Below are positions 128 through 55,120 of a stretch of DNA of 55,120 nt, in pieces (position 1 is the stretch's first letter; every line of letters starts with the position of its first letter). Source of the stretch: a virus. The stretch is from positions 1-55,120 of IMG/VR virus record IMGVR_UViG_3300037560_000072; one strand, given 5' to 3'. The notes under the pieces are model-generated. The model was not told the origin of the DNA. It did no database searches and saw only the letters and a program-made list of their open reading frames with translations. The position numbers were made by a program, and so were the translations under genes.

Positions 128-2288
128 CCTTCCCCCTTTCCCCCGTTCCTGCCCAGTCTTTACCACCTACCACCCCATGGCGTGTGGACGCGACAAGAAC
201 TATGCTCCCTACGTCAGCTCCCACCTCAAGATGCTGAGTGACTACATAGATGGAGACCTCACCTACGAGATCAAGGGTGGCAGCCTCACTATCCAGACAG
301 CACCTCGCCCGCCGAGCTACCCACTTTCCCGGTTGAGCCTGGACATAGAAACGTATGGAATTCTCAAAGGACAGAACCAAACTCAGTTCCATCCTCTCAA
401 GTCCATGGTCCACGACGGTATCAAGAGAAAGGACCTGGTAGTGACTGTGGGCCTTACTTGGCCCAACGAAGAGGACGAACTGGAACACGCTATTTTTATT
501 ATGAACCGGGAGAGTCACCGGAGAAAGCTGTGGTCATGGCTGAAGAAGTGTTACGAAGCAGTATCGGACCTAACGGATGTCGGAGGGTTCGGGTACCTTG
601 GAGGACAGAACATCAAGTTCGATCTGATGTACCTACGCCACGCATACCCGGAGTGCAAGACATGGCTGAACTATCCCCTACCGATCGTAGACCTGATGGT
701 AACGAACTATCTGCTCAACGAAGGCAGACCAGAGAAGAGTCTGAAAGCTTTGGCACCATTACTGCGGATCACACAATACGATGGGGGCTTCACCCAGTAC
801 CCATCCCAGAACGATCCGGCTCTACATCAGTACAACTGTCAGGATACGGCAGCTACCCTCCTTTCTCAAACCAAATTAGAGAGTATGATCCAGACTCTAT
901 ACGGGAAGGACTCACCCAAGCTATCAGAGTTCAATCGCGAATGGTACACGAAGCTGCTGTGGTCAACCGTCTGGATGGAGGAGTCCGGGATAGCAATGAA
1001 TCAGCAGGCTCTAGAAGGGCTCTTGAAATCATACGAGGCACGGATGGTAAAGCTGGAGAGGGGAATCAAGAACCGATGGAACATCAGCCTCCGGGGGAAG
1101 GGCAGTGCAACGTACAAGAGGAAGATAATGGACGAGGCGTGCCAGACGTGTTTAGAGGTATCCCTCCCGATCCCGAAACTACAGAAGACCAACACGACGA
1201 GGGACATCTCATTCAAGGAGGAGAATCGGAACGCATTACTCGATGTACTTCCTGCAACAACAGATTCCTACAAGAAGTTACAGGCAGTGGGGCGTGTACA
1301 CACTGCGGGGGGGACCTTAGATAGATACTTGTATCCATTATTGGTGGGGAGGGGCAAAGGTCACAGCGACCCGACGACTCGCCTAATTAACGGCTTAGTT
1401 TACCCACGCTGGTATCCCGTTCCTTCGGAGTGGGAGGACGGGAGTGTGGGAGGAACCAAACAGTGTCGTATTGTGGCCAAAGGCCCCCCCTGCCAAACCT
1501 TTCCATCCCCAATCAAGAAGTGCATTACCTCTCGGTATGACTACCTCATTTGGTTTGACTACTCACAGATTGAACTCCGAATCGCTGCACTTCTCAGCAA
1601 CGATCCGTGGATGACGGAAGAATTCAGCAAGCCGGACTGTGATTTCCATTTAGGTGCTGCAACTAGGCTGTTCGGAGAGAAGGACGCAAAAAAGTTCCGG
1701 CAGGTTGCCAAGATTCTCAATTTTCTAGTAATTTACCTCGGCGGGGCTGGCCAGTATCAGACTACTCTTCTCCGTGAGAAGGGCATCGTCCGATCTCGCG
1801 GCCAGTGTCAGCAAGACATAAACGACTGGTGGAAGCAAGCTATTCGACTACACAAATGGCAGGAGGAACTCTACGAATTCGTCTGCACCCACGGCTACTT
1901 CCAGCTTCCCCTCGTTGGCCAGTCCCGCCTCTTTCTTGGTAACAGACGAGAAGTAAGAGACCAAATGAAAGAGATTGTGAACATGCCTGTGCAAGCGGTA
2001 GCAGCAAACGTAATGCTATCGGCACAGTTCGAGTTACAGTGGGCCTTCAAACAGAAACGAATGAAGTCCATCCTACCCATAAATGTATACGACGCAGCAG
2101 CCATTGAGTTTCCTAAACAGGAGCTGTACGCAGTACAGCATGAGATGAAAAGAATCCTGCCCGATCCGCCCTACTATCGGGCATTGTGCAAGGTTCTCGG
2201 ACGCAGGCTACCTCTGGCTTGTGAAGTAAAAGTTTACAGGGTGGACAAGAGCGGATTCAATACAAAAATTGAGAAGTATTCCGTTTGA
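1..2288 (+). CDS. UDG-DNA polymerase I fusion, exonuclease and polymerase part
   Basis: Continuation of the gene starting at 54555 (base 1 is the second base of codon 147). A DnaQ-like 3'-5' exonuclease has LDIETYG (D261, E263), GQNIKFD (Exo II) and YNCQD (Exo III). The family A polymerase palm has motif A DYSQIELR (D666), motif B R713-x3-K717 and motif C VYDA (D844). Motif B reads NFLVIYL where NFGVLYG is usual, and motif C has YDA instead of HDE, so the fingers and catalytic turn are divergent, but both metal-binding aspartates remain. It is the replicative polymerase of the phage and leads the plus-arm operon. The TGA stop overlaps a promoter for the next gene. Confidence 0.93.
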   Translation, partial: LSLKKSFSRQGDFTDFRALTAPTPKSIVRLGEVVGPYLSDPTLPPFPRSCPVFTTYHPMACGRDKNYAPYVSSHLKMLSDYIDGDLTYEIKGGSLTIQTAPRPPSYPLSRLSLDIETYGILKGQNQTQFHPLKSMVHDGIKRKDLVVTVGLTWPNEEDELEHAIFIMNRESHRRKLWSWLKKCYEAVSDLTDVGGFGYLGGQNIKFDLMYLRHAYPECKTWLNYPLPIVDLMVTNYLLNEGRPEKSLKALAPLLRITQYDGGFTQYPSQNDPALHQYNCQDTAATLLSQTKLESMIQTLYGKDSPKLSEFNREWYTKLLWSTVWMEESGIAMNQQALEGLLKSYEARMVKLERGIKNRWNISLRGKGSATYKRKIMDEACQTCLEVSLPIPKLQKTNTTRDISFKEENRNALLDVLPATTDSYKKLQAVGRVHTAGGTLDRYLYPLLVGRGKGHSDPTTRLINGLVYPRWYPVPSEWEDGSVGGTKQCRIVAKGPPCQTFPSPIKKCITSRYDYLIWFDYSQIELRIAALLSNDPWMTEEFSKPDCDFHLGAATRLFGEKDAKKFRQVAKILNFLVIYLGGAGQYQTTLLREKGIVRSRGQCQQDINDWWKQAIRLHKWQEELYEFVCTHGYFQLPLVGQSRLFLGNRREVRDQMKEIVNMPVQAVAANVMLSAQFELQWAFKQKRMKSILPINVYDAAAIEFPKQELYAVQHEMKRILPDPPYYRALCKVLGRRLPLACEVKVYRVDKSGFNTKIEKYSV

Positions 2289-2313
2289 CTTCGGCACCGA
2301 ACTGGCCTAAAAT
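2285..2313 (+). promoter_or_regulatory. Sigma70-type promoter, plus strand
   Basis: TTGACT (2285-2290), 17-bp spacer, TAAAAT (2308-2313), with GCC just before the -10 as in the other promoters here. The -35 overlaps the polymerase stop codon. It would boost the genes from 2326 onward. Confidence 0.65.
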
Positions 2314-2325
2314 GGAGAAGAACAC

Positions 2326-2715
2326 ATGCAAGAAGTACGAAAAGCATCAACAAGGCGGTTACGAGTTTACATTGCTGGACCTATAACCAACGGCGGCAAG
2401 GGCTATGACATGAAGTCAATCCACGAGGCCACCAAGGTCCACCTTCGGCTCATCGAACTCGGCTTTGTCTCTCACTGTCCACAGTTGACAGTGTTCTGTG
2501 ACTTCATGGCTCCTAACCGGATACCCTACGGCGTGTGGCTTGACTTGGACCAGTGCTACATTGATGACTGTGATGTTATCCTGCGTCTACCGGGAGAGTC
2601 AAGGGGGGCAGACCGGGAGTGTCAATACGCCGAGTCCATCGGCATTCCAGTTCTCGATGGTCTAGGTAATTTCCTGGCCGAGTACAAAGACTGTTACGGA
2701 AAGGTACCAGTATGA
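2326..2715 (+). CDS. DUF4406 / nucleoside 2-deoxyribosyltransferase-like protein
   Basis: 129 residues. The N-terminal strand and loop VYIAGPIT (about 14-21) and LPGESRGADRE (about 88-98) followed by an A-rich helix are the signature of the DUF4406 branch of the deoxyribosyltransferase-like Rossmann fold. A role in nucleotide or nucleotide-sugar metabolism is likely, but the substrate is unknown. GGAGAAG lies upstream of the ATG. The stop overlaps the next start (ATGA), so the two are translationally coupled. Confidence 0.8.
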   Translation: MQEVRKASTRRLRVYIAGPITNGGKGYDMKSIHEATKVHLRLIELGFVSHCPQLTVFCDFMAPNRIPYGVWLDLDQCYIDDCDVILRLPGESRGADRECQYAESIGIPVLDGLGNFLAEYKDCYGKVPV

Positions 2716-3470
2716 AACGTCTTGTCCGAATAACCCTGCCGGATGTTCACTTTCCATTCCAAGATGATAATCTTCTCAATGCTTGGGCCAATCATGCCGC
2801 CCAACTAAAGCCAGATGGAGTTGACATCTTGGGGGACCTGCTAGACTGCTACGCACTCTCCCGGTTTGACAGGAATCCGAATCGTATAGGAACGTTCCAA
2901 GAAGAGCTGGATCAAGCTAAGGAGTTTCTTGCATTCATACGGGACGTGGTTGGTGATGACTGTGACATCCGAGAGTCTGAGGGTAACCACGAGCACCGAT
3001 TTACCAAAGTCATGTGGAACAAGGCACCTGCACTGGCAACCATTAGAAACCTTACCATTCCTGAACTTCTTGGCCTAAAAAAACTGGGAATCAAGTGGCA
3101 CAGCATTCAAAATCCATACAAAATTCGTGATCTCTGGTACACACACGGTGACATACTACGCAAGCACGCAGGCATGTCGGCCCGTGCTAAGTCAGAGGCA
3201 ATTCACGGATCAGTTATGGTGGGCCACTCCCACCGGGAGGGTTGGTCTCCTTACACAACGTGGGAGGGCATCGAACAGGCTTACGATGCTGGTCATGTAA
3301 GCGATTACACTCAGCTTGACTACGTCCACACCACTCCCAACTGGCAGCAAGGCTGGCCCGTAGTAGAGTTCCTGCCCGAAGGCGTACATGATGTCAGTTT
3401 CGCTCGTGTACACAACGTAGGCAAGAAGAGGATCGTAGTCTACAAGGGTGAGGTCATTGCAAAGCTATGA
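2712..3470 (+). CDS. Calcineurin-like metallophosphoesterase
   Basis: 252 residues with the metallophosphoesterase motifs in order: LPDVHFPF (D-x-H), LGDLLD (GD), EGNHEHR (GNHE), a TYTHGD-like WYTHGD and GHSHR. These bind a dinuclear metal centre and hydrolyse phosphomonoesters or diesters. Such proteins sit in phage replication modules and may trim DNA or nucleotides; the substrate here is unknown. It starts within the stop of the DUF4406 gene and overlaps the next small gene in the same ATGA fashion. Confidence 0.88.
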   Translation: MKRLVRITLPDVHFPFQDDNLLNAWANHAAQLKPDGVDILGDLLDCYALSRFDRNPNRIGTFQEELDQAKEFLAFIRDVVGDDCDIRESEGNHEHRFTKVMWNKAPALATIRNLTIPELLGLKKLGIKWHSIQNPYKIRDLWYTHGDILRKHAGMSARAKSEAIHGSVMVGHSHREGWSPYTTWEGIEQAYDAGHVSDYTQLDYVHTTPNWQQGWPVVEFLPEGVHDVSFARVHNVGKKRIVVYKGEVIAKL

Positions 3471-4605: not shown

Positions 4606-5341
4606 TGGTAGCTATGACCTAAAACAGAGTGACACCAAGCAGACGTTCTCGACGGGTGCCCAACGTGACACCCAGGAATCCAAGTCCAGGATTGATCTCA
4701 TTAGTCCCGTATTCTTGGAGCGACTGGGCATGGTCCTCACCAAGGGGGCCGAGCACTACGGTGAGAGAAACTGGGAGAAGGGGGTGCCACTCTCCCGGTT
4801 ACTGGCATCTACTGCTAGGCACCTGAACCAAACTATTGATGGACTGGAAGACGAGGACCACCCAGCACAGGCAGCGTGGAACCTCATGGCCTACATCCAC
4901 ACGCTGCACAGGATTAAAGCAGGAACTCTCCCGGTAGAGCTGGATGATATGCCGCAAGAAAAAAACTTGGAGCAGGAAGTTGGCCCTCAAATTAAATGCG
5001 GGCGGGAAAAATGTGAGGCGTGTCATCCACACCCCGAGCCGTCTATGCTTGTACCTGTAAAAACCTTGCTGTGTCCATGGTGCAACAAGACGAAGGACTG
5101 GAACCTCTTTAAGAACATAGAACTCAAAGTAGAAATCTGCAACGGCTGCTACTGGAAAGGAGCCCACGAAAAAAATCTGTCAGCGGACTTGACTTCTGAC
5201 AAAAAGGAGCCTACAGTTGGGTATAGACCGGAACGCCTCTTACTTATGTGTACCTACTGCGGATTTAAGTTTGATGTAGAATTTGGGCAAACTGCGTCAG
5301 TCATACACTGCCCCCGATGTATAAGGAAACTACACTCGTGA
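4592..5341 (+). CDS. DUF5664 dATP/dGTP diphosphohydrolase-like protein with zinc-ribbon tail
   Basis: 249 residues in two parts. Residues 15-115 match the DUF5664 family (TGAQRDTQESKSRIDL, a KGAEHYGERNWEKG segment, ARHL, DEDH, AAWN), all-alpha MazG-like hydrolases that remove diphosphate from purine dNTPs. Residues 130-249 contain several CxxC pairs (CEAC, CPWC, CNGC, CTYC, CPRC), at least two zinc ribbons. That tail is unusual for the family and could be a fusion. No PurZ-type gene is seen, so a modified-purine genome is not supported. Two copies of the dispersed element lie inside (4790, 4926). Confidence 0.75.
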   Translation: MHYPDGSYDLKQSDTKQTFSTGAQRDTQESKSRIDLISPVFLERLGMVLTKGAEHYGERNWEKGVPLSRLLASTARHLNQTIDGLEDEDHPAQAAWNLMAYIHTLHRIKAGTLPVELDDMPQEKNLEQEVGPQIKCGREKCEACHPHPEPSMLVPVKTLLCPWCNKTKDWNLFKNIELKVEICNGCYWKGAHEKNLSADLTSDKKEPTVGYRPERLLLMCTYCGFKFDVEFGQTASVIHCPRCIRKLHS

Positions 5342-6709: not shown

Positions 6710-6843
6710 CTAGATGTAGCTACTGTGATAGAGAGACTGTCCTAGATGATAGAGTCCAACTGGACGAACCGGGAGAGTTTCTGTGTTTCATCTGCAACGA
6801 AGAGTTGATGGAGGAGTTAGATGACTTCACAAGTAATAACTAG
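6706..6843 (+). CDS. Mini zinc-knuckle protein
   Basis: 45 residues; ATG overlaps the previous stop, with AAGGAG upstream. CSYC (residues 4-7) and CFIC (about 31-34) form a putative four-cysteine zinc site. The acidic C-terminus overlaps the next gene by 23 nt. An exact dispersed element (6767-6777) encodes its Glu-Pro-Gly-Glu segment. Function unknown. Confidence 0.6.
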   Translation: MTRCSYCDRETVLDDRVQLDEPGEFLCFICNEELMEELDDFTSNN

Positions 6844-8229: not shown

Positions 8230-8247
8230 ACTTTAACCGGGAGAGTA

Positions 8248-8291
8248 GAGGGGGACCGCTCTGGCTGGTCCAGATGTCCCCCTCTCATTTT
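8248..8291 (+). terminator. Rho-independent terminator
   Basis: Perfect 9-bp stem GAGGGGGAC (8248-8256) with GTCCCCCTC (8276-8284), followed by a T tract (ATTTTT). It closes the first plus-arm operon. An exact AACCGGGAGAG copy (8235-8245) lies just before the stem in sense orientation. Confidence 0.9.
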
Positions 8292-8302: not shown

Positions 8303-8776
8303 ATGGCTGATCCACAACGAACAGTATGCACCGCAAGCGTATGGCCTCACCGCCACACCAACGAACTGACTGGCCCGCTGGACGTCAAGATCAGCTACAA
8401 AAACCAGCCACCCATCGTGCGGACCTGGGCTAAGATGAAGTCAGCTTGGATCTACCTAGAACAGCCAGATGAACGGACTAATCTCACAATTATAAGGCTA
8501 TCCTTTGGACACAACCCTGACCCAGGCTATCGGATCAACCAGTGCCGCGTTGGAAAAGATGATACTCTGAAGCTCTATATCAAAGCCAGGATTACCAACA
8601 AGATGGAGCACCCAATTCCGCGTGGCCGGTGGCAAGGAACCTGTCAGTATACTGATGAGTGGTGTGTATTTACATTCCAAGCTATGACCATGAAGGTGAA
8701 GCCCAAGTATGAACCCAAGATCGTTCTACCGGACGGATCTCTCCCGGTTAAGAAAACTAGGATTGTAATACCATGA
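8303..8776 (+). CDS. Hypothetical protein, beta-rich
   Basis: 157 residues, SD TTGGAG before the ATG. The sequence alternates hydrophobic and basic residues (predicted mostly beta), with several Trp. No family recognised. It is the first gene after the terminator, so its expression needs read-through or an unseen promoter. The stop overlaps the next start (ATGA). Confidence 0.7.
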   Translation: MADPQRTVCTASVWPHRHTNELTGPLDVKISYKNQPPIVRTWAKMKSAWIYLEQPDERTNLTIIRLSFGHNPDPGYRINQCRVGKDDTLKLYIKARITNKMEHPIPRGRWQGTCQYTDEWCVFTFQAMTMKVKPKYEPKIVLPDGSLPVKKTRIVIP

Positions 8777-9043: not shown

Positions 9044-9388
9044 ATGTGTAATACATTATGCCCAGAGTGTGCCCAAGAAGAGGGTGCGTGTCTTTGTAAA
9101 GAGGTAATCAAAACTCCTATACCTCTTGGTAAGAGAGTACTGCTAGTAAAGGCTGACGCTGCGGAGGAGAGTAAGGGTGGAATCATACTTCCCTCCGACT
9201 CACGGGAGCAGCCCCTTGAAGCACGGGTAGTTGCAGTGGGACACGAAGTAACCCAGGTTGCCAAGGACGACATGGTTATCTTTGCTGCCTTTGCTGGTAC
9301 CACGTTTACCATTGGTGACCGGGATGTAATCGTATTGGACGAAGAGGACATCATGCTAGTCCTCCGGGAGGTGAAAAGTGACGACTAA
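9044..9388 (+). CDS. GroES-like co-chaperonin with N-terminal zinc knuckle
   Basis: 114 residues from ATG 9044, chosen for its SD (GGAG, 8 nt upstream); the frame stays open upstream to about 8906, so a longer form is possible. Residues 6-18 hold CPEC...CLC. From residue 20 the Cpn10 fold is clear: PIPLGKRVLLVK, then a mobile-loop-like region ending SKGGIILP, EARVVAVG, and a C-terminal DEEDIMLVL strand. It would cap host GroEL, as T4 gp31 does, to fold phage proteins such as the capsid. The knuckle is an unusual addition. No GroEL gene is present. Confidence 0.82.
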   Translation: MCNTLCPECAQEEGACLCKEVIKTPIPLGKRVLLVKADAAEESKGGIILPSDSREQPLEARVVAVGHEVTQVAKDDMVIFAAFAGTTFTIGDRDVIVLDEEDIMLVLREVKSDD

Positions 9389-9947
9389 GGAGAAGGTCTA
9401 CTTTACAGTGCGGTTTACAGAAAAGCATGGACTTACCGTACCGGAGTTCCTGGAGGCTCACCCTAACTTCCTGCCCCAAACTGTATATCCCTGCTTCACC
9501 CAGTTGTGCAAGGCAAAAAAGATTCTGGATAGCCGGGAGCGTCGTAAATCAAAAAACAACCGACGTTCTATCGTCTGGATTGACGCCAAGTATGGAGGTA
9601 CCATCCCGGTATGGGGTAGTGGGCAGCCCAGCTACAGCTACAAGAACCGAGCGAAGATTATCATGGACTTACTAGCTATTTTCGGGCCTCTTAGTGTGGC
9701 TGAAATGATGCAGTGTTCAGACAGTCTGAAGCCCATGAGCACCTCCTCTCTAGTGTCTCGATTAGTACTACAGCAATGGCTTCGTAAGACCAATAAGACC
9801 AGACAGAACCAGATCAATCAGACGTGCTGCTTGTATGACCTAACACCTAGAGGTAGACAAGTGAGAGAGGGGGCTCCCAGCCTCTTCAAGAAGACCTATG
9901 ATGCAGCCCCAATCAAGCGTACTGATACGGAGAAGACTCGTGGCTAG
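9378..9947 (+). CDS. Winged-helix-like DNA-binding protein
   Basis: 189 residues. Two helical segments look like winged-helix units: residues 13-50 (EKHGLTVPEFLEAHP to CKAKKILDS) and 93-150 (IMDLLAIFGPLSVAEMM to LYDLTPRGRQV). The protein is basic, with an Arg/Lys-rich loop between. This architecture suggests a transcriptional regulator. It is the last plus-arm gene and a candidate to bind one of the repeated sites in this genome; that link is only inference. Its TAG stop shares CTAG with the convergent minus-strand gene. Confidence 0.6.
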   Translation: MTTKEKVYFTVRFTEKHGLTVPEFLEAHPNFLPQTVYPCFTQLCKAKKILDSRERRKSKNNRRSIVWIDAKYGGTIPVWGSGQPSYSYKNRAKIIMDLLAIFGPLSVAEMMQCSDSLKPMSTSSLVSRLVLQQWLRKTNKTRQNQINQTCCLYDLTPRGRQVREGAPSLFKKTYDAAPIKRTDTEKTRG

Positions 9948-12900
9948 AAATCGAACCTGGAGCTGCTTGGTAAGGCCTGACGCCCCACCTGTTGAGGGTC
10001 CACTGAGTCAAACGGACCAGTCCGATAGCTCTGCCGAGCAGATGATTGGGGTCCGGGTCCAACAGAACGGGATCGTTCTCGTACAGACTTTGGTTCTCCG
10101 AGAAGTGCTGGATCAATTCCTAGCAGAGATGGCCCAGAGGCTCCCAGAGTCGCTGCAATTAGCTGTACATATTGATCTCGTGCCGGTCCAGGCGGCAGGG
10201 TCCGGACCAATTGTTCCAGCCTAGACACGCGGCGGCGGACTTGCATTGCCTCAACGTCTTGTTCAGAAACCGGGAGAGGGAAGCCAAACTGTATTTGGAA
10301 TCTCTCAGCGATGGAGTTGGCCGCCGAGGCATCGTTCTGGAGGCGTGAGTCCAACCAGTCCTTTCGTATCTCCCTAATCTGGTCACGTCCTTTGACCAGC
10401 GTGGACATCAGCTCCTCCTCAGCCAGCTTGTCCCCAGACCGGATGCCCATGCCCATCTTCACCAGCTCCCACCGGCTAAAGTACCCCTTCAAAGTACCCT
10501 GTCGAGTGTACACCGGTATCCGGCCATCTGGTGCGGGGTTGTTGTAGTCAGCGTAGGACCTGCCGAGGACCTTGGAGGCTCGGACTCCAATGTCACCGCC
10601 CAGTGACGGTGGAAGCAGCCCAGCAGCCCGGAGCATTCCGGTACCACCAGGGATCAGCAGGGGGGTAGCCCTCATCAGGGATGAGAAGTCCCCAGTGGTA
10701 GCACTCTGGGCTATCGCTCCCATGATGCCTATGGCTGGTGGAACAATTGGGAACCCACCGAACGGTCCCTCTGTCCGGGACTGGAACGTTGGTACCGCAC
10801 CGCCCACCAGAGCGTCAGAGGCATCTACCCCAAGGTATCGTCCCAGCTCCAGGGCCATGATGGACCCAGCAATCATGCGAGCGAAGGTGCCTGGGTTCTT
10901 ACCCATCACGTTCATCTTCTTGCCGGTCAGTGGATCAATGTCATTTACGCCCAGGTTGAAGGCTGTATGGGTAGCAAACTCCAGGAACCTAAGTGGGAAC
11001 TGAGCAAGCTGACGGACCAACGCATTGCGTCCCAGTAGAAAGTAGGGGGTATTCTGTGGACCAGTCAAGAACTGGGTCTCCTCGACTACCCTCGCAGCGA
11101 ACTTATGAGCCATCTCTGCTGGCATCTTGGCTCGCCTAGCATGGATCAGTGCTGCCTCCCATGTGACCAGGCGGTTGGTTGTCTCTGTAGCAGTGAACAG
11201 TGACATCATAGACGCACTGATCTTCTTCTGCAAGTTCATCACCTTGCTGGGTGCCAACGACTGAACACTAACCACGTTCCGGAGAGTACTCTCCAATGCC
11301 TCATCGGTAAGGGGAGCTGATGCTATGCCAGACTTACCAAATGCCGGGTAGGCAAACCGTATGGCATCGTCGTGGCCCATCTTCTTAGGCCCAAAACGAG
11401 CCGCGAAGTACTTGTGGGACTTCCTCATAGCCTCATTAAGACCCTTGGCCGTAGTCACAGGACCGAGAGTGGGAGCGGTAGTGAGAACCATCTGTAGCAT
11501 ATTCTTTAGGGCAGATGCTGGGTTCAAACCAAGAGTGGAAAGGTAGAAGTAACCTGCCGCCTTCTGACTCACGTTCACATAGGAATATGCACTACGAGAA
11601 TTTTCCAGGTGGGTATGGATGATCTTTGACATAGACTCACCAAGTACACGACGAACCTTGGGAGTCTGAGTCCAAGCAGAGAGCTGCATCATATTCTGTT
11701 CCCAGGCTTGTGCCTTGAGAGCATTCTTGAAAGTACCGCGTCCCAGAGCCAGTGGGATGTAAGTATTCTCCAACATCTCCGCACGCATCTTTGCATAGGG
11801 GGCACCCATACGTCCTCCCTTGCCAAGCTCTTTGAGGTCACGGAGATGGTCCATTATCTTCACACCACCACCCTTGATGGTCCACCCATAAGTACTGCCC
11901 ATAGTCTGTGCGTAGTTGTTCATGGTGGTCATTAGCTTCATGGTGTACTGCTTGGGAGTGGCCTCCGACAGTATAGAACTAAAGGCTTGGCCCTCCTGCT
12001 TACTCATAACCGCCGGGTATTTCTCCTTAATCTGGTCAAAGGTCGCCCTCTCTAGCTTATGGAGTACCGGCTGGGTAAGTACACCCTCCGCTCTGGCCAC
12101 TGCAAGTACCTTGAACTTCGATGCTTCCTTCAACTTATTCAAGGCTGCCCTATCAACTAGCCCATGCTGAGCCATTATATCTAGTTCGGGTAGGCTAGGC
12201 ATCATAGCATTGTGACGACGGTAACTCTCTGGACCTAGCCACCGCTCTGCCTTCCTTCCTGCCTGCCGAGCGAAAGCCTTTCCGCTAGATGAATCAGTCA
12301 TGGCCTTCATCATAGCCTGGAAATCTTCCTCACTCCGTATGAGTCTATGTGGATAGTAGTGTTCTATCTTACGTGGATCAGTAAGATACTCAGCCCAGGT
12401 TTCGGTTATCTCATCAAGCTGACCAGACTTACGAAGCCTAGCCATGGTAGCCATGATCGCCTTGCGGTTCTCCTGACTGCCAAAGGACTCACCGTACATG
12501 TCATCGAGCACGCCACGCATACCCTGTGCAAACTGACGTAACTGTGGTGTCATCTGGGCTTCGAGGTTGGGCATAAGAGTACCAACACTCGGCAACTCTA
12601 CACGAGAGGCCCCCTTACCCAGTGTAATAACTCCATCCTTTCCCTCCCATCCACGAAGAGGCCGGTGTAGTCCGTCCAACCAGGACGACACCATAAGCTG
12701 CTCTTTCTGTGAGGGAAGAGTACCAGTGCCCGCCCTATATTGCCTAAGCAAGGTGGACATGCGACCATTGTACTTGGTACGGAAGTTGGTAACGTCGTGT
12801 ATAATCTTACCATAGTCCTCAAACACACCTGTTCCCCTGTACAGGGCTGGCATTGAAGAGAGCCTACCCATAATAGGAAACCGCTTGAGCATGGACTTTA

Positions 12901-14810: not shown

Positions 14811-16943
14811 TTATCTCCCTGGACCTTGGATGTCAGGCTGATCTTGCACTTGTCCGCCCTCTTCAGGTTGTTCAGTCTTCTTAGACCGTGCCTCTCTACG
14901 CCGCCTCATTTCGGCTTCCACCTTACCACGACGACGCTTGGAAACTCCCATATAGTTTTCCAGAGCTGCTTGTGATTCCCCCAGATTAGACACAGTAACT
15001 GGAGGCATCGTTACAGGTGCCAAGTCATAATCTCCCGAGTAGAGAGCCGCCAGGAACTCAGGATGAGAAGCAACCCCAGCCATCAATTCACCAGCAGCCT
15101 GAAATGGAGATAGCTTGATCGCTTCCTTCAGAGTTTCTACCTCAAGATCAAATTCCTCTTCTGGTGCTCTATCTTCTTGACCCAAGAATTCTCCATATGC
15201 CCCTTGGGTACTGGCCGAGATAGCTCTGGACCTTGCATCGAACGGCAGCTCCCCCTCTCCCGGTTTGTCAGACATGTAGGAAGCAACTGCACCGTCTATG
15301 TACCTACTAGCAAACCCACCCTTCATTTGGTACGTCTTCATAGTGGGCTGGTCCTCAATTAAGTCACGAAGATCCATAGCCTTCTGCTTGGTCAGCCGGA
15401 ACATTCTATTTATACCGTCGTGCATTTGAGCCTGTGACTTGGGAGTAATAGAACCAAACTTTGTTACAACTGGTTGTAGCAGCTTACCCCTTTGAACATC
15501 ACCCGGTACCTGTGCTAGTGCTCTAAGAAGTTCTGTCTTACCGGGAGAGTTGGGCATTTCAAAGATGGTCTTGGCCAGTTTCATCGACAGAGGTGTACCA
15601 CCTTCTGGGGCTACCGTCATAGCCATAAGCTGATCGTCAATATGTCGTAGCACATTCCTCATATTGAACCCCTTATAGAGTTCAACATCAGTATCTAGCA
15701 CCCCCTTATCACCCTCCCCATTCAGTAAGGCATCTATGTCCTTCAATGAGGCTTCACTACCAGGACCCGCAATGGAAACATAGACAGACTCAAGTAGCTT
15801 GGTAGCCATGTTGTGCATCACGTCCTGAGAACCAAATTCCCCAGATTTCAGGACTAGAGAACTGGTTAAAGAACCGGGAGAGATCCGTCCGGTAGAAATC
15901 TCATCAATGAATCCAGCCGCACCATAGTAGGCACCTTCAACAGCGGTGGGAGCCAGACGATCATAGTCCTTGGTAGAGAACTCAGTTATCTTGTCGTGCT
16001 CTTCCTTTAGGTCCTTGAAACTCTCCAGCCTCATAGCCAAGTAGTCGTCTCGGAACTTCTTATGCTTCACCAAGGCGAAGAACTGTTCGTCCTCCATAAA
16101 TGCCATGTTGCTCATGTACTCAACTGGATTGAAGCCACGGTACTTTTGCAGAGCTGGATCGTCTGGGTCTCTACCATATAGTCCTCCCGGTGGATACCCA
16201 CCAGTATGGTATAGCTCCTCTACCTCCTCGTCTGACCAATCCTTACCCGACATTACATCTCTTGGACTTTCCCCCAGTAGCTTAGTAAGGTCAGCATGGG
16301 GATCACCAGCAAGAACCTGCTCCTGTACCTTGGCCATATCCTGTGCTACCTGACCAGTAATATCAGACTGATGATCCTGTTCGTGGAACATCTCCGCTAA
16401 GCGTAACTGCCGATTCATCTCCCGGAGTCGGTCCATCCCACCCGGCACGTTGGTCCACTGCTCAATCATGGATGGGTCATGTAGCATCTGTCTCATACCA
16501 CGAATGCGGTCACCAAACTCTACCCGATTTGTATTCATCCTCTGAATGAAGTCTCTTCCAGCATTCATCTGAGATGCTACACGGGCCTGGGTGACGGCAA
16601 AGTCTTTGGCCATATCTTTCTGGAGGTTAGCAGTCCACTCATGGTACCGTTCCTGGTACTCCCGGTCCTTCATCTTCTCCTGCATAGACTCTTCACGAGC
16701 CAGCTTCTCATCCTCTCGTGCCACAACCTGATTCATAGATTGAGTCATCTGGGCAGCATTCATGGATGACTCTTGTGCTTGAGCCTCAGACAGCTTCGTA
16801 AAGTTGTCCATCATTTTCTTCTGGGCTGTGTTCTGATCGTTGATGAAGTTACCAATAGCTACATTGGCCAAGGATGAAGCACCACCACCGCCACCCCGCC
16901 CAGATGACTGCATGATAGGAATTGGTTGCGTTGGTTTCGGCAT
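14811..16943 (-). CDS. Internal virion protein, helical, Met/Gln-rich
   Basis: 710 residues. A Gly-rich N-terminus is followed by long Met/Gln/Glu/Lys-rich coiled-coil-like helices (about 40-190) and a globular body; the C-terminus is charged and disordered (runs of Arg and Glu). It has no catalytic motif. Size and position suggest a component of the ejection apparatus (T7 gp15-like by role, not by detected similarity). Three copies of the dispersed element lie within it (15255, 15539, 15872). Confidence 0.6.
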   Translation of the reverse strand: MPKPTQPIPIMQSSGRGGGGGASSLANVAIGNFINDQNTAQKKMMDNFTKLSEAQAQESSMNAAQMTQSMNQVVAREDEKLAREESMQEKMKDREYQERYHEWTANLQKDMAKDFAVTQARVASQMNAGRDFIQRMNTNRVEFGDRIRGMRQMLHDPSMIEQWTNVPGGMDRLREMNRQLRLAEMFHEQDHQSDITGQVAQDMAKVQEQVLAGDPHADLTKLLGESPRDVMSGKDWSDEEVEELYHTGGYPPGGLYGRDPDDPALQKYRGFNPVEYMSNMAFMEDEQFFALVKHKKFRDDYLAMRLESFKDLKEEHDKITEFSTKDYDRLAPTAVEGAYYGAAGFIDEISTGRISPGSLTSSLVLKSGEFGSQDVMHNMATKLLESVYVSIAGPGSEASLKDIDALLNGEGDKGVLDTDVELYKGFNMRNVLRHIDDQLMAMTVAPEGGTPLSMKLAKTIFEMPNSPGKTELLRALAQVPGDVQRGKLLQPVVTKFGSITPKSQAQMHDGINRMFRLTKQKAMDLRDLIEDQPTMKTYQMKGGFASRYIDGAVASYMSDKPGEGELPFDARSRAISASTQGAYGEFLGQEDRAPEEEFDLEVETLKEAIKLSPFQAAGELMAGVASHPEFLAALYSGDYDLAPVTMPPVTVSNLGESQAALENYMGVSKRRRGKVEAEMRRRREARSKKTEQPEEGGQVQDQPDIQGPGR

Positions 16944-18159: not shown

Positions 18160-18172
18160 GTTCTCTCCCGGT

Positions 18173-38960: not shown

Positions 38961-38974
38961 TTTGCTCTCCCGGT

Positions 38975-39184
38975 TTAGAAGGCCGAAGCGAAGTTCTGGT
39001 GTGCTTGAGCCATGGCGATCAGGGCACGCTGCCTGTTGTTCATGGCTTGTCCAATGGCTTCCTGCATTTTGCCAAGTCGGCGACGTTTAGGTCGGGCGGC
39101 GTCACGGGCCTTTGACTCCTCTCGGGAGGCTAGGGCTTCTGTTCCTACTGATGCAAGGGCACCTGCGATCATTCCAATGGCCAT
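38975..39184 (-). CDS. Small helical protein
   Basis: 69 residues. A short hydrophobic N-terminal helix (about 1-15) precedes a charged, Ala/Arg-rich helical part. Its TAA stop overlaps the dispersed element copy at 38965. Possibly membrane-inserting; unknown. Confidence 0.55.
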   Translation of the reverse strand: MAIGMIAGALASVGTEALASREESKARDAARPKRRRLGKMQEAIGQAMNNRQRALIAMAQAHQNFASAF

Positions 39185-41048: not shown

Positions 41049-41248
41049 GTAGGGATTTTGGTGAAATTTTGGTGAAAACTGGTGGTTCTATTCCGCTACA
41101 TTATCAGACTCTCTGGGGGCCGATGGGGGGTCCGATATTACTTGGGCCTAAGAATGTGTTATCCGGACGTACCGATCAGCTCTCCCGGTTATAGGACGCC
41201 CCAGTGAGAGCTAAGTGCGTGGTTATCGGACGATTGAAGTGGTACTGA

Positions 41249-43950: not shown

Positions 43951-44118
43951 CTAATCCCCTTTCTTCTTGTAAGGATACCCATGTGGCAACTCCCCCTTAG
44001 TCCTCGCCAGACTGTCCTTCCAGCTATCATCCGGGAGAGTTGTCTTGTTCCTCCAATCTAGCATAATTAAAGCTACGAGCAGCAGTGCTAACACTAGAAC
44101 CAAGTACAGCCAAATCAT
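43951..44118 (-). CDS. Small membrane protein
   Basis: 55 residues from ATG 44118 with SD GGAGG. N-terminal transmembrane helix rich in Leu/Val/Ala (about 2-20), then a polar, Lys-rich tail. Overlaps the upstream stop. An ATCCGGGAGAG copy is at 44029. Confidence 0.62.
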   Translation of the reverse strand: MIWLYLVLVLALLLVALIMLDWRNKTTLPDDSWKDSLARTKGELPHGYPYKKKGD

Positions 44119-44784: not shown

Positions 44785-46187
44785 GTGAATATCCTCCCCG
44801 GCACCGCACACTCTCCCGGTTTAGAGGGAACAGGACCATTTGGAACATCTTTAGTGGCCTCCTCTGTATAGGTCACCTCTTCCCCACTATCGACTGCTTC
44901 CTCTTTGGCAGAAAGTAGTTGTCCACTTGAATCACAATCATTGATCTCTAGGTTATGTGAGCCGTCGTCTCGCTCCTCAAAAGAAGTTATTACAGAAAAG
45001 TGCAGGATAGGACTTGAGATACTGCCCAAAAACCGTACAGCAGGAACCTTTCTACTTTCCTGCAAAGATAAATCCTGCCTCTCGTGTAGCCCCAAAGGCA
45101 ACTCTGACTCTCCCAAAGTTTCTGCACATTCTATGGCTTTATTCAGCCACTCGTCTGGGGGATTAAGATCAGAAGGCCAGTATGACACCACACCTGGAAG
45201 GTCAAGGTTAAACCTATTAATCACTCCCGCTGTAATCTTGTCGCCTACAGTATCATACATAATATTACGTGGTAGACCAGTGCATGGCTCACTGGGAGGT
45301 CCGTTGAACATCCAATTTCTTTGTATGAAATACTGAGGAACTAGTGGTGGTATTCCTCGCTCCAAATTCTTACTTACTACTTCCAGTAATGCTTGGGGCA
45401 TAACAATATTGTAATACATCGGGCGAACTACTTCCAAATCCCACTTCCTATGCCCATCATTTCCGGATATATGACGTAGTCTACTCCAGTCAAAACGCTT
45501 GGTCGATGGAGATGTGAATCCAGGATAAGCCCTACCTGCCACCAGAAAAAGCATGGTCCTATAGTTCTCATCTCTTTCCAAAGTTACATCTTGCGTATAT
45601 GGACTGTCTCTATACAGTCCACGCATCATATCCTCAATAAAAGACGATAAGCTAGTTTTGCCAAGTAACCGCCTGAATTCGACTCCACTGGGAGTAGTAT
45701 CTTTAGGATGAAGTAGGGACGTAGCTCCCACAATCATTCTATCCACTCTAAATAGGCTATCTTTATGGTTACCTATAACCATACTGTTGGCTACCCGAGG
45801 TATCACTCCTCCCGGAAACTCCTTCTCTATAAGCTCACTTTGGCAGTTAATCCTAATTGGACAGTATCCGTACTGTACCTCATCTTCTGGGAATGATGGA
45901 GATAGTCTCAAGTGTGTACTTTTCCTACTACCTACGTTGATTATCCAACACCCTAATTCGTCACGCCAGCAGCTCCTCAAGTCGGGAACCCCGATCCACA
46001 TAGCCCCAAGAAGTGAATCCTTAGTTTCGGACCACGGACTACAACTTACCTTGTTTGATGTTATATCAGGGGGTCTTAGTTCATTCATAACCTTAGTAAC
46101 AACTCTACTTACTTGGTTCCCCAAACTTGGGTTTAACGCCGTAGTACTATTCCAATCCAAAGGACGGATGATTCTACTACTACTCAT
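44781..46187 (-). CDS. Unknown 468-residue protein linked to JAB/E1 genes
   Basis: Start ATG 46187 overlaps the JAB gene stop (TAATG) and has SD GGAGGAAGC. It has no recognised domain: mixed alpha/beta up to about residue 380, cysteines at the start (CWRDELGC, YCPIRINC) and an acidic tail. The tight coupling to the JAB gene suggests a role in the same system, as an E2-like enzyme, adaptor or target; sequence alone does not show an E2 fold. An exact dispersed element (44811) encodes a Lys-Pro-Gly-Glu near the end. Confidence 0.6.
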   Translation of the reverse strand: MSSSRIIRPLDWNSTTALNPSLGNQVSRVVTKVMNELRPPDITSNKVSCSPWSETKDSLLGAMWIGVPDLRSCWRDELGCWIINVGSRKSTHLRLSPSFPEDEVQYGYCPIRINCQSELIEKEFPGGVIPRVANSMVIGNHKDSLFRVDRMIVGATSLLHPKDTTPSGVEFRRLLGKTSLSSFIEDMMRGLYRDSPYTQDVTLERDENYRTMLFLVAGRAYPGFTSPSTKRFDWSRLRHISGNDGHRKWDLEVVRPMYYNIVMPQALLEVVSKNLERGIPPLVPQYFIQRNWMFNGPPSEPCTGLPRNIMYDTVGDKITAGVINRFNLDLPGVVSYWPSDLNPPDEWLNKAIECAETLGESELPLGLHERQDLSLQESRKVPAVRFLGSISSPILHFSVITSFEERDDGSHNLEINDCDSSGQLLSAKEEAVDSGEEVTYTEEATKDVPNGPVPSKPGECAVPGRIFT

Positions 46188-47251
46188 TACTTGCTTCCTC
46201 CAATCCTGATACAAAGATTCTTAGCCTGGGGAGTTGGACATATATCTTTACACCACGACTCCAGACCAGCATACTGGGAACTCGTCATAATATACCAGTG
46301 GTTCCGATAATATACAAGACGAAGATTCTTCAGATGTTCAGGACAAATCTTGAGTGCTCCCAGTATATCCAAGGAATCCTCGACATAATCCGAATCGACA
46401 GTGTCTGCAATGTCTACAATAGTTTGGGCAACTGTAGTCTTAGTAGTGAGTCGGGTACGTTTGGATTTAGTCTTGAGTTTCTTGGTTGGCTCAGGAATCT
46501 TCAATAGTTCTTCAAGACTTCTGTTACCACTCCTAGAGAATACAACTGCTACCCTCTCAATATCGCCAATGCTTCCGTCCAGCAATTGAAACACTTTACC
46601 TGCAATGGCCCCATTGATTGTGTACGATCCATCCCGACCAAAGACTAAGTGAAGTCCAGACTTCTCTGGTTCAGCCCAATCATCAATATCGGTTTGGCTA
46701 GGACTGCATGGCTCTCCCGGATGAATATGTATTGTTCCAATCCATCGTGCCTTCTCTTGGAACTTTCCCATCTCCTCCGTAGTGTCTTTCCAAGTAACCC
46801 CACCAGGTGTACCTGTCTGTGGTGGTACGTGATATGTCCAGCCAGTTAGGTCCCTATTACGTCCAACCAACATAAGGACCTCTCTATTGTACTTGGAAAA
46901 GAACACGTCAAACAACCAAGCTAACTCGGACATGGGAGGAAAGTTAGGCCAGTCAATCTTGTCAACATAGACATTTGACTCATCTTCGTCCAGCTTAGCT
47001 GGAGCTAGACATTCAATAAGTCCAAACCTGTGCTCGTAGACCCTCCTATCATCTCCCATTACAAGCCTAGTAGTCGAAAGGTTCACCGTGTTCAAGTCAT
47101 CTAATCCAAGTAGGTCCTGACTCTTACCAGGCATAGTTGACTTAATAGCTGTAGTGGACACATGAGAAGACCGAGGCCATTCTGGATTCCACCCGGGATC
47201 TTCGTATCCATTCTCATCATCGTCGTTGAATAACCAGTCTAAGTCTATCAA
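46187..47251 (-). CDS. JAB/MPN (JAMM) metallopeptidase
   Basis: 354 residues from a TTG start that overlaps the E1 stop. The JAMM site is intact: E124, then HIHPGEPCSPSQTD giving H175-x-H177-x7-S185-x2-D188. Such zinc peptidases remove or process ubiquitin-like proteins. An N-terminal region (1-105) and a C-terminal region with a Lys/Thr-rich linker (about 255-275) flank the domain. Neighbouring E1-like and ubiquitin-like genes make a role as deconjugase or Ubl processor likely. Confidence 0.85.
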   Translation of the reverse strand: MIDLDWLFNDDDENGYEDPGWNPEWPRSSHVSTTAIKSTMPGKSQDLLGLDDLNTVNLSTTRLVMGDDRRVYEHRFGLIECLAPAKLDEDESNVYVDKIDWPNFPPMSELAWLFDVFFSKYNREVLMLVGRNRDLTGWTYHVPPQTGTPGGVTWKDTTEEMGKFQEKARWIGTIHIHPGEPCSPSQTDIDDWAEPEKSGLHLVFGRDGSYTINGAIAGKVFQLLDGSIGDIERVAVVFSRSGNRSLEELLKIPEPTKKLKTKSKRTRLTTKTTVAQTIVDIADTVDSDYVEDSLDILGALKICPEHLKNLRLVYYRNHWYIMTSSQYAGLESWCKDICPTPQAKNLCIRIGGSK

Positions 47252-48149: not shown

Positions 48150-48360
48150 TACTCTACCTTTCAAACCGGGAGAGGAAAGAACCAAGAGGGGGGAGGCGTG
48201 TCGCCGGATCACTACCACCACGGGACAAGATCATCAGGGGACTTGCCTCTATGTGGCGGGCAGGACTCGAACCTGCCTTTCCTCTCCTCTCCCAGTTCAT
48301 CCTCTCTCCTCAGCTAGTCTGTCTTGGTTCCCCGATGCACTTAATCTCTACCCGAACTGA
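48150..48360 (-). other. Spacer with tRNA-like T-arm inside Ubl/E1 cluster
   Basis: 211 bases between the ubiquitin-like and coiled-coil genes. 48259-48277 forms a perfect T-arm (GGCAGG-TTCGAGT-CCTGCC minus the shared bases, 6-bp stem and 7-nt loop); CTAGC lies further 5' as in the two tRNA-like genes. No matching acceptor or full cloverleaf was found, so it is a tRNA remnant or mimic. One exact (48164) and one near (48287) dispersed element lie here, facing each other. Confidence 0.35.
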
Positions 48361-49002: not shown

Positions 49003-49109
49003 CTTTTTTCTTAATTTTTTACGGCCGATAACTACTTAGATGTGTAGAACCGGGAGAGTTCCGCTGTGTCTAGTACCAAGAACTACCCGCAAGCGGTAAT
49101 TAACTTTGC

Positions 49110-49424: not shown

Positions 49425-49664
49425 CTATCTCTCTCGAAGAACTGCCTCCACTGCTGCCAGCCTCTGAGCCACCTCCGACAGGCCCTGATTCATGCCTTTG
49501 ATGTCCCCCCGAAGAAGCCTAAGATGTTCGATAGCAGTCACCTCAACATAGCTGGTCATCTCAGCCCGGGAGATAAGATCAGGAGCCATGGTCAACCAGA
49601 GGACCGTCAGGCCCACTAGTACGCCCGCTATAACCTTGGCAGCTACCTCTCCCGGTTTAGTCAT
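49425..49664 (-). CDS. Membrane-anchored coiled-coil protein
   Basis: 79 residues from ATG 49664, which overlaps the TGA of the propeller gene. One transmembrane helix (about 9-28, VIAGVLVGLTVLWLTMAPDL) and a coiled coil to the end. This shape fits an i-spanin-like or virion-linked membrane protein, not proven. A dispersed element (49647-49657) encodes residues 3-6. Confidence 0.6.
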   Translation of the reverse strand: MTKPGEVAAKVIAGVLVGLTVLWLTMAPDLISRAEMTSYVEVTAIEHLRLLRGDIKGMNQGLSEVAQRLAAVEAVLRER

Positions 49665-51599: not shown

Positions 51600-51609
51600 T
51601 AGTTGTTCC

Positions 51610-52306: not shown

Positions 52307-52831
52307 CTACATTACCCGCAAAAGGGTAAGTTCCACGAATAGCTTCATTGTATTCGTATCGTTCGTTAGAGGAACCCGTGAAACCACCTTCACAGACAGG
52401 CTCCCATTAGCAGAAACCTCTTCGCCACCAGTCGTATTAAGAGGTACATTCCGCACCTCATTCATCGTCATGCCCTTCAACTGGGCAGCACACACAACCG
52501 AAGACCCGCTCAGCACGCTTAAACTCAGTCTACCGTTCGGACTCCGTACAACACCGTTCGCGTCGTCCATCAAAGTTGCTTCGCACTTCAGTACTCGAAA
52601 CTTCCACGGAGCATCTGAACTAAACAGCGATACAGTTTGACTGTCATCGGCCGTAGCCGTAAAATAAGCCACCATCTTGACGGACTGACCAAACGCCGTA
52701 TTTCCATCTGCATTCGTTAGTCCGCCGGGAGAGTGTAGCATACTCTCGGGGTCCTGGGTTACAACGCCCAGTACCCCATCAGCAGTCAGGTTGACCTTAA
52801 CACCAGTTCTACCAACTTCGTTCAATGACAT
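52307..52831 (-). CDS. Beta-rich virion protein, paralogue of 53373-53969
   Basis: 174 residues. Shares with 53373-53969 the start pattern (ESG/EVGxTGxxV), a QPP/QDPESM segment, a SDAPWKFRVL-type strand and a late VVxxV pattern, so the two are related. Probably a minor virion protein or head fibre. Unknown fold. Confidence 0.62.
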   Translation of the reverse strand: MSLNEVGRTGVKVNLTADGVLGVVTQDPESMLHSPGGLTNADGNTAFGQSVKMVAYFTATADDSQTVSLFSSDAPWKFRVLKCEATLMDDANGVVRSPNGRLSLSVLSGSSVVCAAQLKGMTMNEVRNVPLNTTGGEEVSANGSLSVKVVSRVPLTNDTNTMKLFVELTLLRVM

Positions 52832-53986: not shown

Positions 53987-54032
53987 AAAAAATGTGGGGG
54001 AGGTCGGAAATCAATCCCGTCGCCTCCCCCAC
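53987..54032 (-). terminator. Attenuator: terminator between promoter and first gene
   Basis: Minus strand: perfect 10-bp stem GTGGGGGAGG / CCTCCCCCAC (54023-54032 with 53994-54003), 19-nt loop, then ATTTTTT (53987-53993). It lies about 12 bases after the predicted start of the promoter at 54052-54080 and before the first structural gene. No minus-strand gene lies upstream that it could terminate, so it must act on this promoter. Confidence 0.88.
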
Positions 54033-54051
54033 TCTCCCGGTTTCTATCCTT

Positions 54052-54080
54052 ATCATAGGCACCGTGACGACCCAAGTCAA
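54052..54080 (-). promoter_or_regulatory. Main minus-arm promoter
   Basis: Minus strand: TTGACT (54080-54075), 17-bp spacer, TATGAT (54057-54052), GCC before the -10. Start near 54045. An exact dispersed element (54032-54042) lies in the first transcribed bases, followed at once by the attenuator stem. Confidence 0.82.
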
Positions 54081-54126: not shown

Positions 54127-54155
54127 TTGACTCGCCGCAAAACGCCGCCTATAAG
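54127..54155 (+). promoter_or_regulatory. Main plus-arm promoter
   Basis: TTGACT (54127-54132), 17-bp spacer, TATAAG (54150-54155), GCC before the -10. It drives the coiled-coil gene and the polymerase operon. Together with 54052-54080 it makes a divergent pair 46 bp apart. Confidence 0.8.
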
Positions 54156-54198
54156 AAGAGTGCCGCGACCGCCGATCGCCGCCCGGAAACGAACGAAA

Positions 54199-54573
54199 AT
54201 GCCCACGAAAGAAAACCCATATGAGTGTCAACCTCCACTTCCCCAGAAGGAAAAAACTCCACCTCCGACTTGGGACCTGGAAAAAAAGGACCTGCTCTAT
54301 CGCGTGAGCCAGTTGGAGAAGTCCCTAGAAATCTTGTACTTGAGTATGGGTGAAGGTAAGGAAACATCTATAGCTCAGTTAGAAGAAAAAGTCAGTACCT
54401 GTCTCAATTCCATTATTACTCTTTCACAGGGTAAAGAAACTCTTGCATTCCACATGCTCGAATTTCAAACCAAACTCAAAGAGACCATACGAGCTGTCGA
54501 GCGTCTGGCAACGGGCCACTCTATTGGTTGTCTGGGCCTGCCAACGGAGGAATCATGGGACCCGCCTGTGTAG
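54199..54573 (+). CDS. Coiled-coil protein upstream of polymerase
   Basis: 124 residues from ATG 54199; the frame is open further upstream but that lies within the promoter. Pro-rich N-terminus (about 1-30), then long helices with heptad pattern (LEKKDLLYRVSQLEKSLEIL). No family recognised. Its end overlaps the polymerase start by 19 nt, so it may be a polymerase accessory or just a leader gene. Confidence 0.62.
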   Translation: MPTKENPYECQPPLPQKEKTPPPTWDLEKKDLLYRVSQLEKSLEILYLSMGEGKETSIAQLEEKVSTCLNSIITLSQGKETLAFHMLEFQTKLKETIRAVERLATGHSIGCLGLPTEESWDPPV

Positions 54574-55120
54574 CCAACTGCACTGCCTGCCCGCTGCACC
54601 TACAGTGCAAGACCGCCTGCATACCAGCAACGTGGTTTAACCGGGAGAGTGGTACCTGGCCACAGCCTGGTTTTTGTACTCAGCACGATCGAGCCCTCTA
54701 CATCATTGGTGAGGCTCCCGGTTGGAACGAGGATCAGAAGGGCGAGTGCTGGATCGGTAAGGCTGGCAGCATCCTCAAGACTGCCTACATCGAATACTTC
54801 GAGTTTCAACACCGAGTAGATGTCTTCCTATCCAACGCCGTCCGCTGCCACCCGCCCGGCAACAAGAATCCTACCAGGACCCAGCTCAAGATGTGCCAGG
54901 GATTCTACCTGGCCGACATCGTTTACCTTCAACAGCTCTACGATCAGGTCATCATCCTATGCTGTGGAGCACCAGCAACTCAATCCGTGCTCGCCCTGTC
55001 CCTAAAGAAGTCATTCTCTCGCCAAGGTGACTTCACCGACTTCCGTGCGTTGACCGCCCCAACGCCGAAGTCCATCGTCCGCTTGGGGGAAGTGGTCGGA
55101 CCATACCTTAGTGACCCGAC
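54555..55120 (+). CDS. UDG-DNA polymerase I fusion, N-terminal part
   Basis: First part of a 908-residue protein that continues at base 1. ATG 54555 has an SD (GGAGG, 54546-54550) and overlaps the upstream gene by 19 nt. Residues 1-210 are a family-4-like uracil-DNA glycosylase: GEAPGWNED (52-60), a GKAG segment (68-71), SNAVRCHPPGN (93-103) and, beyond the join, YHP (203-205). Four cysteines (C9, C12, C98, C114) have the spacing of the 4Fe-4S ligands of this family. The enzyme would remove uracil from DNA or recognise it ahead of the polymerase. Start and family are clear; activity is inferred. Confidence 0.9.
   Translation, partial: MGPACVANCTACPLHLQCKTACIPATWFNRESGTWPQPGFCTQHDRALYIIGEAPGWNEDQKGECWIGKAGSILKTAYIEYFEFQHRVDVFLSNAVRCHPPGNKNPTRTQLKMCQGFYLADIVYLQQLYDQVIILCCGAPATQSVLALSLKKSFSRQGDFTDFRALTAPTPKSIVRLGEVVGPYLSDP
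54994..55120. repeat. Terminal direct repeat, right copy
   Basis: Exact copy of bases 1-127, lying inside the split polymerase gene. Together the copies show circularity of the assembly; true physical ends are not visible. Confidence 0.95.

Follow-up and report, generated by a model that had tools for sequence, protein, structure and literature searches.

In the uncultured phage record IMGVR_UViG_3300037560_000072 of IMG/VR (positions 1 to 55,120; this whole stretch of 55,120 nt is the window referred to below), a short word recurs along the DNA on both strands. The question is what function such a word serves and which protein reads it.

Abundance, placement and orientation of the word

The original prediction of a genome-wide dispersed element was confirmed by a recount. 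The 11-bp word AACCGGGAGAG has 26 exact copies in the window versus 0.04 expected in dinucleotide shuffles, and its core CCGGGAGAG has 37 exact copies, 21 on the plus strand and 16 on the minus strand, which are intermixed along the window. The site consensus is non-palindromic and asymmetric, with a length of about 11–12 bp. The core is found in coding sequence on both strands, as had been claimed, and codon-preserving shuffling, proposed at that time as a refutation test, did not refute the element: 31 copies were observed within CDS versus a mean of 1.84 and a maximum of 7 in 300 synonymous-codon shuffles that kept every protein.

The density is approximately one site per 1.4 kb, and most sites lie inside genes. 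Among 40 sites found with a weight matrix, seven are intergenic versus 3.2 expected (P 0.036); the predicted enrichment between genes is therefore present but modest in the window, and it is strong in the related genome G005 (17 of 50 sites versus 3.6 expected, P 4e-8). As for spacing, the largest gap does start at 10268, but the near-regular spread described earlier did not hold. The coefficient of variation of the gaps is 0.88 versus 0.96 under random placement (P 0.29), and regular spacing was rejected, since the gaps fit random placement. Strand is independent of gene direction, as predicted, with 15 window sites oriented with transcription and 18 against it; seven genomes pooled gave 78 and 77, respectively.

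Respelled words and kept positions in related phages

The window belongs to a group of uncultured phages having about 20 to 50 copies of the word per genome. A megablast search with the window's first 50 kb as query found no match in phage records, no TerL relatives were detected in GTDB genomes or in named phage records, and Rfam and tRNA scans of the window yielded nothing at threshold. In each relative with at least 20 kb of sequence, a single dispersed word dominates; it occurs on both strands with a density of ~5–10 sites per 10 kb. The contigs G003, G007, G008, and G009 are small, and their length does not permit firm motifs. Two relatives share the core of the window. The word is AGCCGGGAGAG in G001, ATCGGGAGAGAG in G004, TGTGGGTGAGATT in G006/G010, and GCAGAGACAGG in G005. 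G004 contains no copy of CCGGGAGAG but 22 of TCGGGAGAG, and the second base is G in G001 for 12/12 homologous pairs in which the window has A or T.

Site positions are kept far above chance, namely, 13/21 in comparison with G001, 8/17 with G002, and 7/18 with G004, and this conservation far exceeds what nucleotide identity allows. Homologous sites in all three relatives were found for the exact sites 19170..19180 (+) and 28970..28980 (+) and the core sites 4926..4934 (−) and 33051..33059 (+). The exact site 504..514 (+) recurs in G001 and G004 at the corresponding position and in the same orientation, and the exact sites 2856..2866 (−) and 15872..15882 (+) have homologues in G002 and G004. Homologues in G001 were noted for the exact sites 4790..4800 (−), 8739..8749 (−), 26445..26455 (+), 49647..49657 (−), and 54639..54649 (+) and the core sites 2590..2598 (+), 15541..15549 (+), and 32233..32241 (−), and those in G002 for the exact sites 10268..10278 (+) and 34431..34441 (+). 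In addition, the intergenic exact sites 35096..35106 (−) and 49048..49058 (+) have counterparts at the matching junctions of G005 and G004, respectively; despite its very different word, G005 has a site at 3/3 scored junctions that bear a window site (P 0.04). Another exact site (38965..38975, −) is located immediately 3′ of a stop codon. The following sites were listed by sequence match: exact sites 6767..6777 (+), 15255..15265 (−), 23206..23216 (+), 23256..23266 (−), 31711..31721 (+), 41180..41190 (−), 44811..44821 (−), and 48164..48174 (+) and core sites 19791..19799 (+), 34812..34820 (−), 38654..38662 (+), 44031..44039 (+), 46712..46720 (−), and 52725..52733 (+).

Whether the element has a function is settled by the relatives, which keep sites at homologous positions. 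Of the explanation developed below, what has been demonstrated is that the sites exist, that their positions are conserved, and that the word changes in a coordinated way. Conserved positions together with coordinated word change also lend good support to the genome-wide sequence-specific binding protein that had been suggested.

The coordinated change bears on the possibility that the element serves recombination or replication, as a Chi-like signal or as a recognition site of the primase-helicase, read by the phage exonuclease/Sak4 or the D5-like primase-helicase. The phage does encode a PD-(D/E)XK exonuclease and a Sak4-like annealing protein, and its helicase has an RFX-like domain at the C-terminus. 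However, the exonuclease (57–85%) and Sak4 (58–80%) are well conserved, whereas the word is greatly changed. Chi sites are shorter and polar; by strand counts, the word, with plus and minus copies interspersed at 21:16, does not show the polarity that a Chi-like signal would have with respect to replication or packaging. We regard this explanation as very improbable.

It seems equally improbable that the word belongs to the host, as a DNA-uptake-like or host regulator dialect to which the DNA of phages of different hosts has adapted. DNA uptake dialects, such as those of Neisseriaceae, are short, dispersed, unpolarised words with species-specific spelling, a likeness that favours this idea. 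Neisseriaceae dialects are nevertheless host-encoded and host-wide. A 14-base version of the word gave scattered single matches among diverse bacterial and archaeal genomes, and among the matches listed no bacterial genome enriched in it was seen and a host-wide word found no support; no other viral contig was enriched either. Moreover, sites that sit beside promoters and leader hairpins of the phage point to a regulator of the phage itself.

Sites at promoters and leader hairpins

A leftward promoter, TTGACT-N17-TATGAT, is located at 54052..54080 (−) and is probably the main early promoter. The exact site 54032..54042 (−) lies between this promoter and a leader hairpin, GTGGGGGAGG...CCTCCCCCAC, followed by a T run (53987..54032, −). 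In each of five genomes, a word in the genome's own spelling occupies this place, and the order is the same: promoter, site, hairpin with a T-rich tail, and then a long leftward operon. The distance from site to hairpin is near constant in these leaders, and that from promoter to site is variable; the leader site of G001 is 51 bp from the promoter start, which speaks against the operator reading proposed below. A second promoter, TTGACT-N17-TATAAT (18131..18159, −), adjoins the exact site 18163..18173 (−). The site abuts the −35 element in the window and G001 and sits in the spacer in G005; G010 also has a site in the spacer of a similar promoter. In addition, the intergenic exact site 8235..8245 (+) immediately precedes a terminator-like hairpin, GGGGGAC...GTCCCCC with a T tail (8246..8291, +).

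A role of the sites as general promoter operators was rejected: the window has about ten promoter-like sequences between genes, and only two of them carry a site; the site–promoter association in the window was not above rotation controls. The original prediction had considered repression, nucleoid formation, packaging, segregation, and recombination as functions, and the linkage of sites to promoters and leader hairpins tilts the choice toward transcription control.

The arrangement of the five leaders may also resemble antitermination sites, such as the lambdoid Q-binding element. A protein loaded beside the promoter would let the polymerase pass the leader hairpin, and the dispersed copies would be further loading sites. 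The shared order of promoter, site, T-tailed hairpin, and long operon and the near-constant site-to-hairpin distance, with a variable distance to the promoter, fit such a mechanism. On the other hand, antitermination does not need ~40 copies on both strands, mostly intragenic, and of the seven terminator-like hairpins that the window contains, only two are accompanied by a site. We therefore consider antitermination improbable.

Candidate binding protein and comparison with known dispersed elements

The best candidate for the binder, by its presence and predicted fold, is the protein encoded at 9378..9947 (+), with a length of 189 aa and a net charge of +18. The original prediction had already named it, and this choice gained support. 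The protein was found in 6/6 group genomes whose sequence covers the region. Modelling from the single sequence was useless (pLDDT 36); the model from a six-sequence alignment (pLDDT 78) predicts two winged-helix domains in tandem. Among four phages sharing GGGAGAG, the predicted recognition helices are invariant, bar one flanking residue, and the wing tip of the second domain is variable. Tblastn against 50,697 phage records found no match to the protein. Other small basic proteins, or the RFX-like C-terminus of the primase-helicase, may be the binder instead.

We see an even chance that the element is the recognition site of a phage-encoded DNA-binding protein, likeliest this one, that reads about 11–13 bp asymmetrically, and that the roughly 40 window sites would constitute a dispersed operator system; we infer which protein is the binder, that it acts on transcription, and that the change is driven by escape from relatives. 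Each of the two winged-helix domains could read half of the one-sided site, so that one monomer would cover it. At the promoters 54052..54080 and 18131..18159, the protein, once bound, would regulate the host RNA polymerase of the sigma-70 type during initiation or early elongation, and at the remaining sites it would serve, in either orientation, as a roadblock or silencer that times transcription of the phage genome. Joint change of binder and sites would explain why close relatives differ in their word, the driver being probably escape from the regulators of relatives during co-infection.

Alternatively, the sites may be where a protein that organises the genome is loaded, be it for phage chromatin, segregation, or packaging; this protein would bridge or coat phage DNA, and the word would mark self DNA. 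The absence of polarity, random spacing, and mostly intragenic location at ~one site per 1.4 kb agree with this, as do weak fold matches of the candidate to ScpB/MukE-like and AspA centromere-binding structures and the failure to find lysogeny genes in six records. However, sites are kept at promoters and immediately before leader hairpins, no ParA partner was found in the six records, and such quick respelling is not usual for structural DNA proteins. An organiser thus appears unlikely.

The proposed dispersed operator system was compared with the stoperators and immunity repressor of the cluster A mycobacteriophages L5, D29, and TipsytheTRex (PMC9283540, PMC6550527). Both have 20–40 asymmetric sites of 11–13 bp dispersed over a genome of ~50 kb (PMC9283540, PMC6550527); stoperator systems are characterised by 20–30 such sites of 13–14 bp, and the window with its 37 core copies and its consensus of 11–12 bp is alike. 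Some stoperators are located at the main early promoter, as the site kept here in five genomes through respelling probably is, and in both cases the motif drifts between relatives. The cluster A repressor has two DNA-binding domains and about 180–190 aa, which the candidate seems to match, as predicted by modelling.

There are also differences. Stoperators have predominantly one orientation: in D29, used as a positive control, 4 sites are oriented with and 24 against transcription (P 2e-4), whereas no preference exists here (78:77), which confirms the contrast drawn in the original prediction. In the absence of polarity, a stoperator-like role of stopping RNA polymerase is therefore not predicted. 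Stoperators are mostly situated in short intergenic spaces (17/28 in D29), in contrast to 7/40 in the window, where most are in genes. Cluster A phages possess prophage maintenance genes (integrase or parABS), and here searches for tyrosine integrase, serine recombinase, and ParA (PF00589, PF00239, PF13614) were negative in all six records, with positive control searches. Since no provirus of the group was found in the sampled genomes either, a lysogeny repressor would have no obvious purpose. The candidate, a predicted tandem winged helix without a match in named phage records, may also differ from the cluster A repressor; no L5 gp71-like structure (HTH plus Stoperator domain) occurred among its listed fold matches, and the group is a phage lineage distinct from cluster A.

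We judge this non-polar, operator-like system to be a new variation on the known dispersed phage operators, of which those of cluster A mycobacteriophages are the best known, in a separate uncultured lineage without detectable lysogeny genes. Rather tentatively, a phage of this kind may mark its whole genome, independently of orientation, with a self-recognition word, the tandem winged-helix reader being rewritten together with the word. If so, each phage lineage would have its own DNA address code serving global gene control or DNA organisation. The relatives, with at least five spellings and orthologous candidate readers, offer a natural experiment on joint change of specificity in a protein and dozens of its targets, and the pairing of protein and site is directly testable.

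Two other systems were compared. The SPBRE elements of SPbeta, bound by MrpR (PMC10516654), are by analogy similar, being a phage-specific repeat under one master regulator. SPBRE is 15 bp and intergenic, whereas the sites here are mostly intragenic, and MrpR has a tyrosine-recombinase fold instead of the predicted winged helix (PMC10516654). Cluster O mycobacteriophages contain a 17-bp repeat, with 34 copies in Corndog, dispersed in intergenic and coding sequence without an assigned function, and no stable lysogens were recovered (PMC4351075); in these respects they resemble the element and group described here. The cluster O repeat is palindromic and common to the cluster members, whereas the present word is asymmetric and respelled between relatives.

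Dispersed word in the window and its relatives

The window is a 55,120-bp IMG/VR virus record (G+C 50%). Its DNA polymerase A gene crosses both record ends (54435-55120 and 1-2288, plus strand), so the record probably represents an almost complete genome with circular permutation. By eye, the N-terminal part of this polymerase resembles a uracil-DNA glycosylase-type domain. The word AACCGGGAGAG was found in 26 copies against 0.04 expected, and its 9-bp core, CCGGGAGAG, in 37, split 21:16 between plus and minus strands; the top over-represented words of lengths 8, 9 and 11 all derive from this element. Synonymous-codon shuffling within genes, the check suggested with the original prediction, bore the excess out (mean of 1.84 core copies versus 31 observed). 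The near-regular spread of sites that had also been claimed was not recovered, and the gaps match random placement.

Scans with DNA polymerase, TerL and capsid sequences revealed ten related virus contigs, with TerL identity of 66-88% among those with complete TerL. No relatives were found in GTDB genomes, and a TerL search found none among named phage records. The same core is present on both strands in the related contigs G001 (29 copies, preferred spelling AGCCGGGAGAG) and G002 (21 copies, ACCGGGAGAGA). It has zero copies in G004 and G005, in which the dominant words are ATCGGGAGAGAG and GCAGAGACAGG (36 exact copies, strands 19:17), respectively; TGTGGGTGAGATT is common to G006 and G010. 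In every relative with at least 20 kb of sequence, a single word is dispersed at roughly comparable density, in most cases with a spelling peculiar to its own phage. A phage-specific DNA-binding protein reading the word very probably exists.

Homologous sites and changes of spelling

Sites were considered homologous when they occupied the identical column and strand in the codon alignment with the window. Homologous sites were found for 13 of the 21 testable window core sites in G001, 8 of 17 in G002 and 7 of 18 in G004. Nucleotide identity of the aligned codons to the window is 70%, 65% and 61%, from which arithmetic gives an expected 8-mer retention of only ~5%, 3% and 2%, respectively. Of the sites homologous between the window and G001, 12 do not have G at the second base in the window; in G001 every one of them does, for example, TATGAACCGGGAGAGTCAC against TATGAGCCGGGAGAGTCAC. 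None of 26 coding sites is common to the window and G005, and yet G005 has a site at each of the three scored junctions that carry one in the window. The simplest reading is that the sites are under selective maintenance and that the specificity of the reader has shifted.

Promoters, hairpins and comparison with stoperators

Divergent promoters lie between genes 53373-53969 and 54435-55118 of the window, the leftward one being TTGACT-N17-TATGAT (54080-54052). In the window, G001, G002, G004 and G005, the own word of each phage is located downstream of the leftward promoter and 0-6 bp upstream of a strong hairpin whose tail is T-rich; the site-to-hairpin distance is near constant, and the promoter-to-site distance is variable. 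This leader hairpin (53987-54032 of the window, minus strand) is alike in shape in the five genomes, with an outer stem of 8-10 bp, a small bulge, an inner stem of 5-6 bp and a 5-nt loop. A second site and hairpin pair of the window is at 8235-8291. At the promoter with a TSS at ~18124, the site adjoins the -35 element in the window and G001; in the G005 counterpart it lies within the spacer on the opposite strand, and G010 has a similar site within a promoter spacer. Sites are missing from most of the other promoter-like sequences. Transcription control is about evenly poised as the main role of the reader, and genome organisation or self-marking seems rather unlikely to be that role.

Small intergenic tRNA-like elements follow the homologue of window gene 7657-8229 in G001 (37225-37290), G002 (13345-13420) and G004 (12030-12113). 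They have a 7-bp acceptor-like stem, in which bases are changed yet pairing, and a canonical-looking T-arm (GTCGGTTCGATTCCGAC); a full tRNA is not present in the three elements. The word directly follows the element in G002 and G004.

Over seven genomes, 78 sites are oriented with gene direction and 77 against it, confirming that site strands do not follow transcription. A count of the same kind in the cluster A mycobacteriophage D29, the positive control, gave 4:24 (P 2e-4), with 17 of its 28 sites intergenic; thus, the published orientation rule of stoperators, the dispersed repressor sites of cluster A (PMC9283540, PMC6550527), fails here. Like stoperators, the element appears to work as a dispersed operator system, but it differed from them in polarity, intergenic placement and prophage genes when each was tested, and it was therefore kept out of the stoperator family. 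Since searches of six records found neither integrases of the tyrosine type nor serine recombinases or ParA, a classic lysogeny repressor is not evident, though extrachromosomal or lost lysogeny is conceivable.

Candidate reader and other genes of the window

The best candidate reader, a 189-aa protein of net charge +18 (9378-9947), is encoded in all six group genomes with sequence covering the region, the other five copies showing 77, 68, 69, 47 and 46% identity to that of the window. The AlphaFold2 model from the six-sequence alignment (pLDDT 78) predicts two winged-helix domains joined by a loose linker: domain 1 with helices 3-13, 21-27 and 33-45 and strands 49-69, and domain 2 with helices 91-102, 107-113 and 122-131 and strands 135-155. 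The best structural matches, all weak, were PadR- and MarR-like single domains and tandem winged-helix proteins. Among phages with GGGAGAG, the predicted major-groove helices are identical or near-identical, and the second wing tip differs (QNQ, LNR, RNA, RNE). This pattern is no more than suggestive. Possible alternatives are the product of 35505-35945 and the winged-helix, RFX-like C-terminus of the D5-like primase-helicase (36062-37411, minus strand).

A GroES/Cpn10-like domain is encoded at 8810-9388 (plus strand, Pfam 5e-18). An apparent ubiquitin-like conjugation set (44781-48600, minus strand) comprises ThiF/E1-like (47248-47964), JAB isopeptidase-like (46187-47251) and ThiS-like (48361-48600) proteins, grouped with a 477-aa protein (44781-46214); a PRTRC ThiF match was weak. 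Two neighbouring 228-aa paralogues (50913-52296, minus strand), represented by one gene in the relatives, evolve fast and are perhaps receptor-binding or decoration proteins. Gene 49661-50524 (minus strand) encodes a beta-propeller-like protein that contains low-density-lipoprotein-receptor class B repeats. In addition, the palindrome AGAGTACTCTC occurs in four copies in the window.
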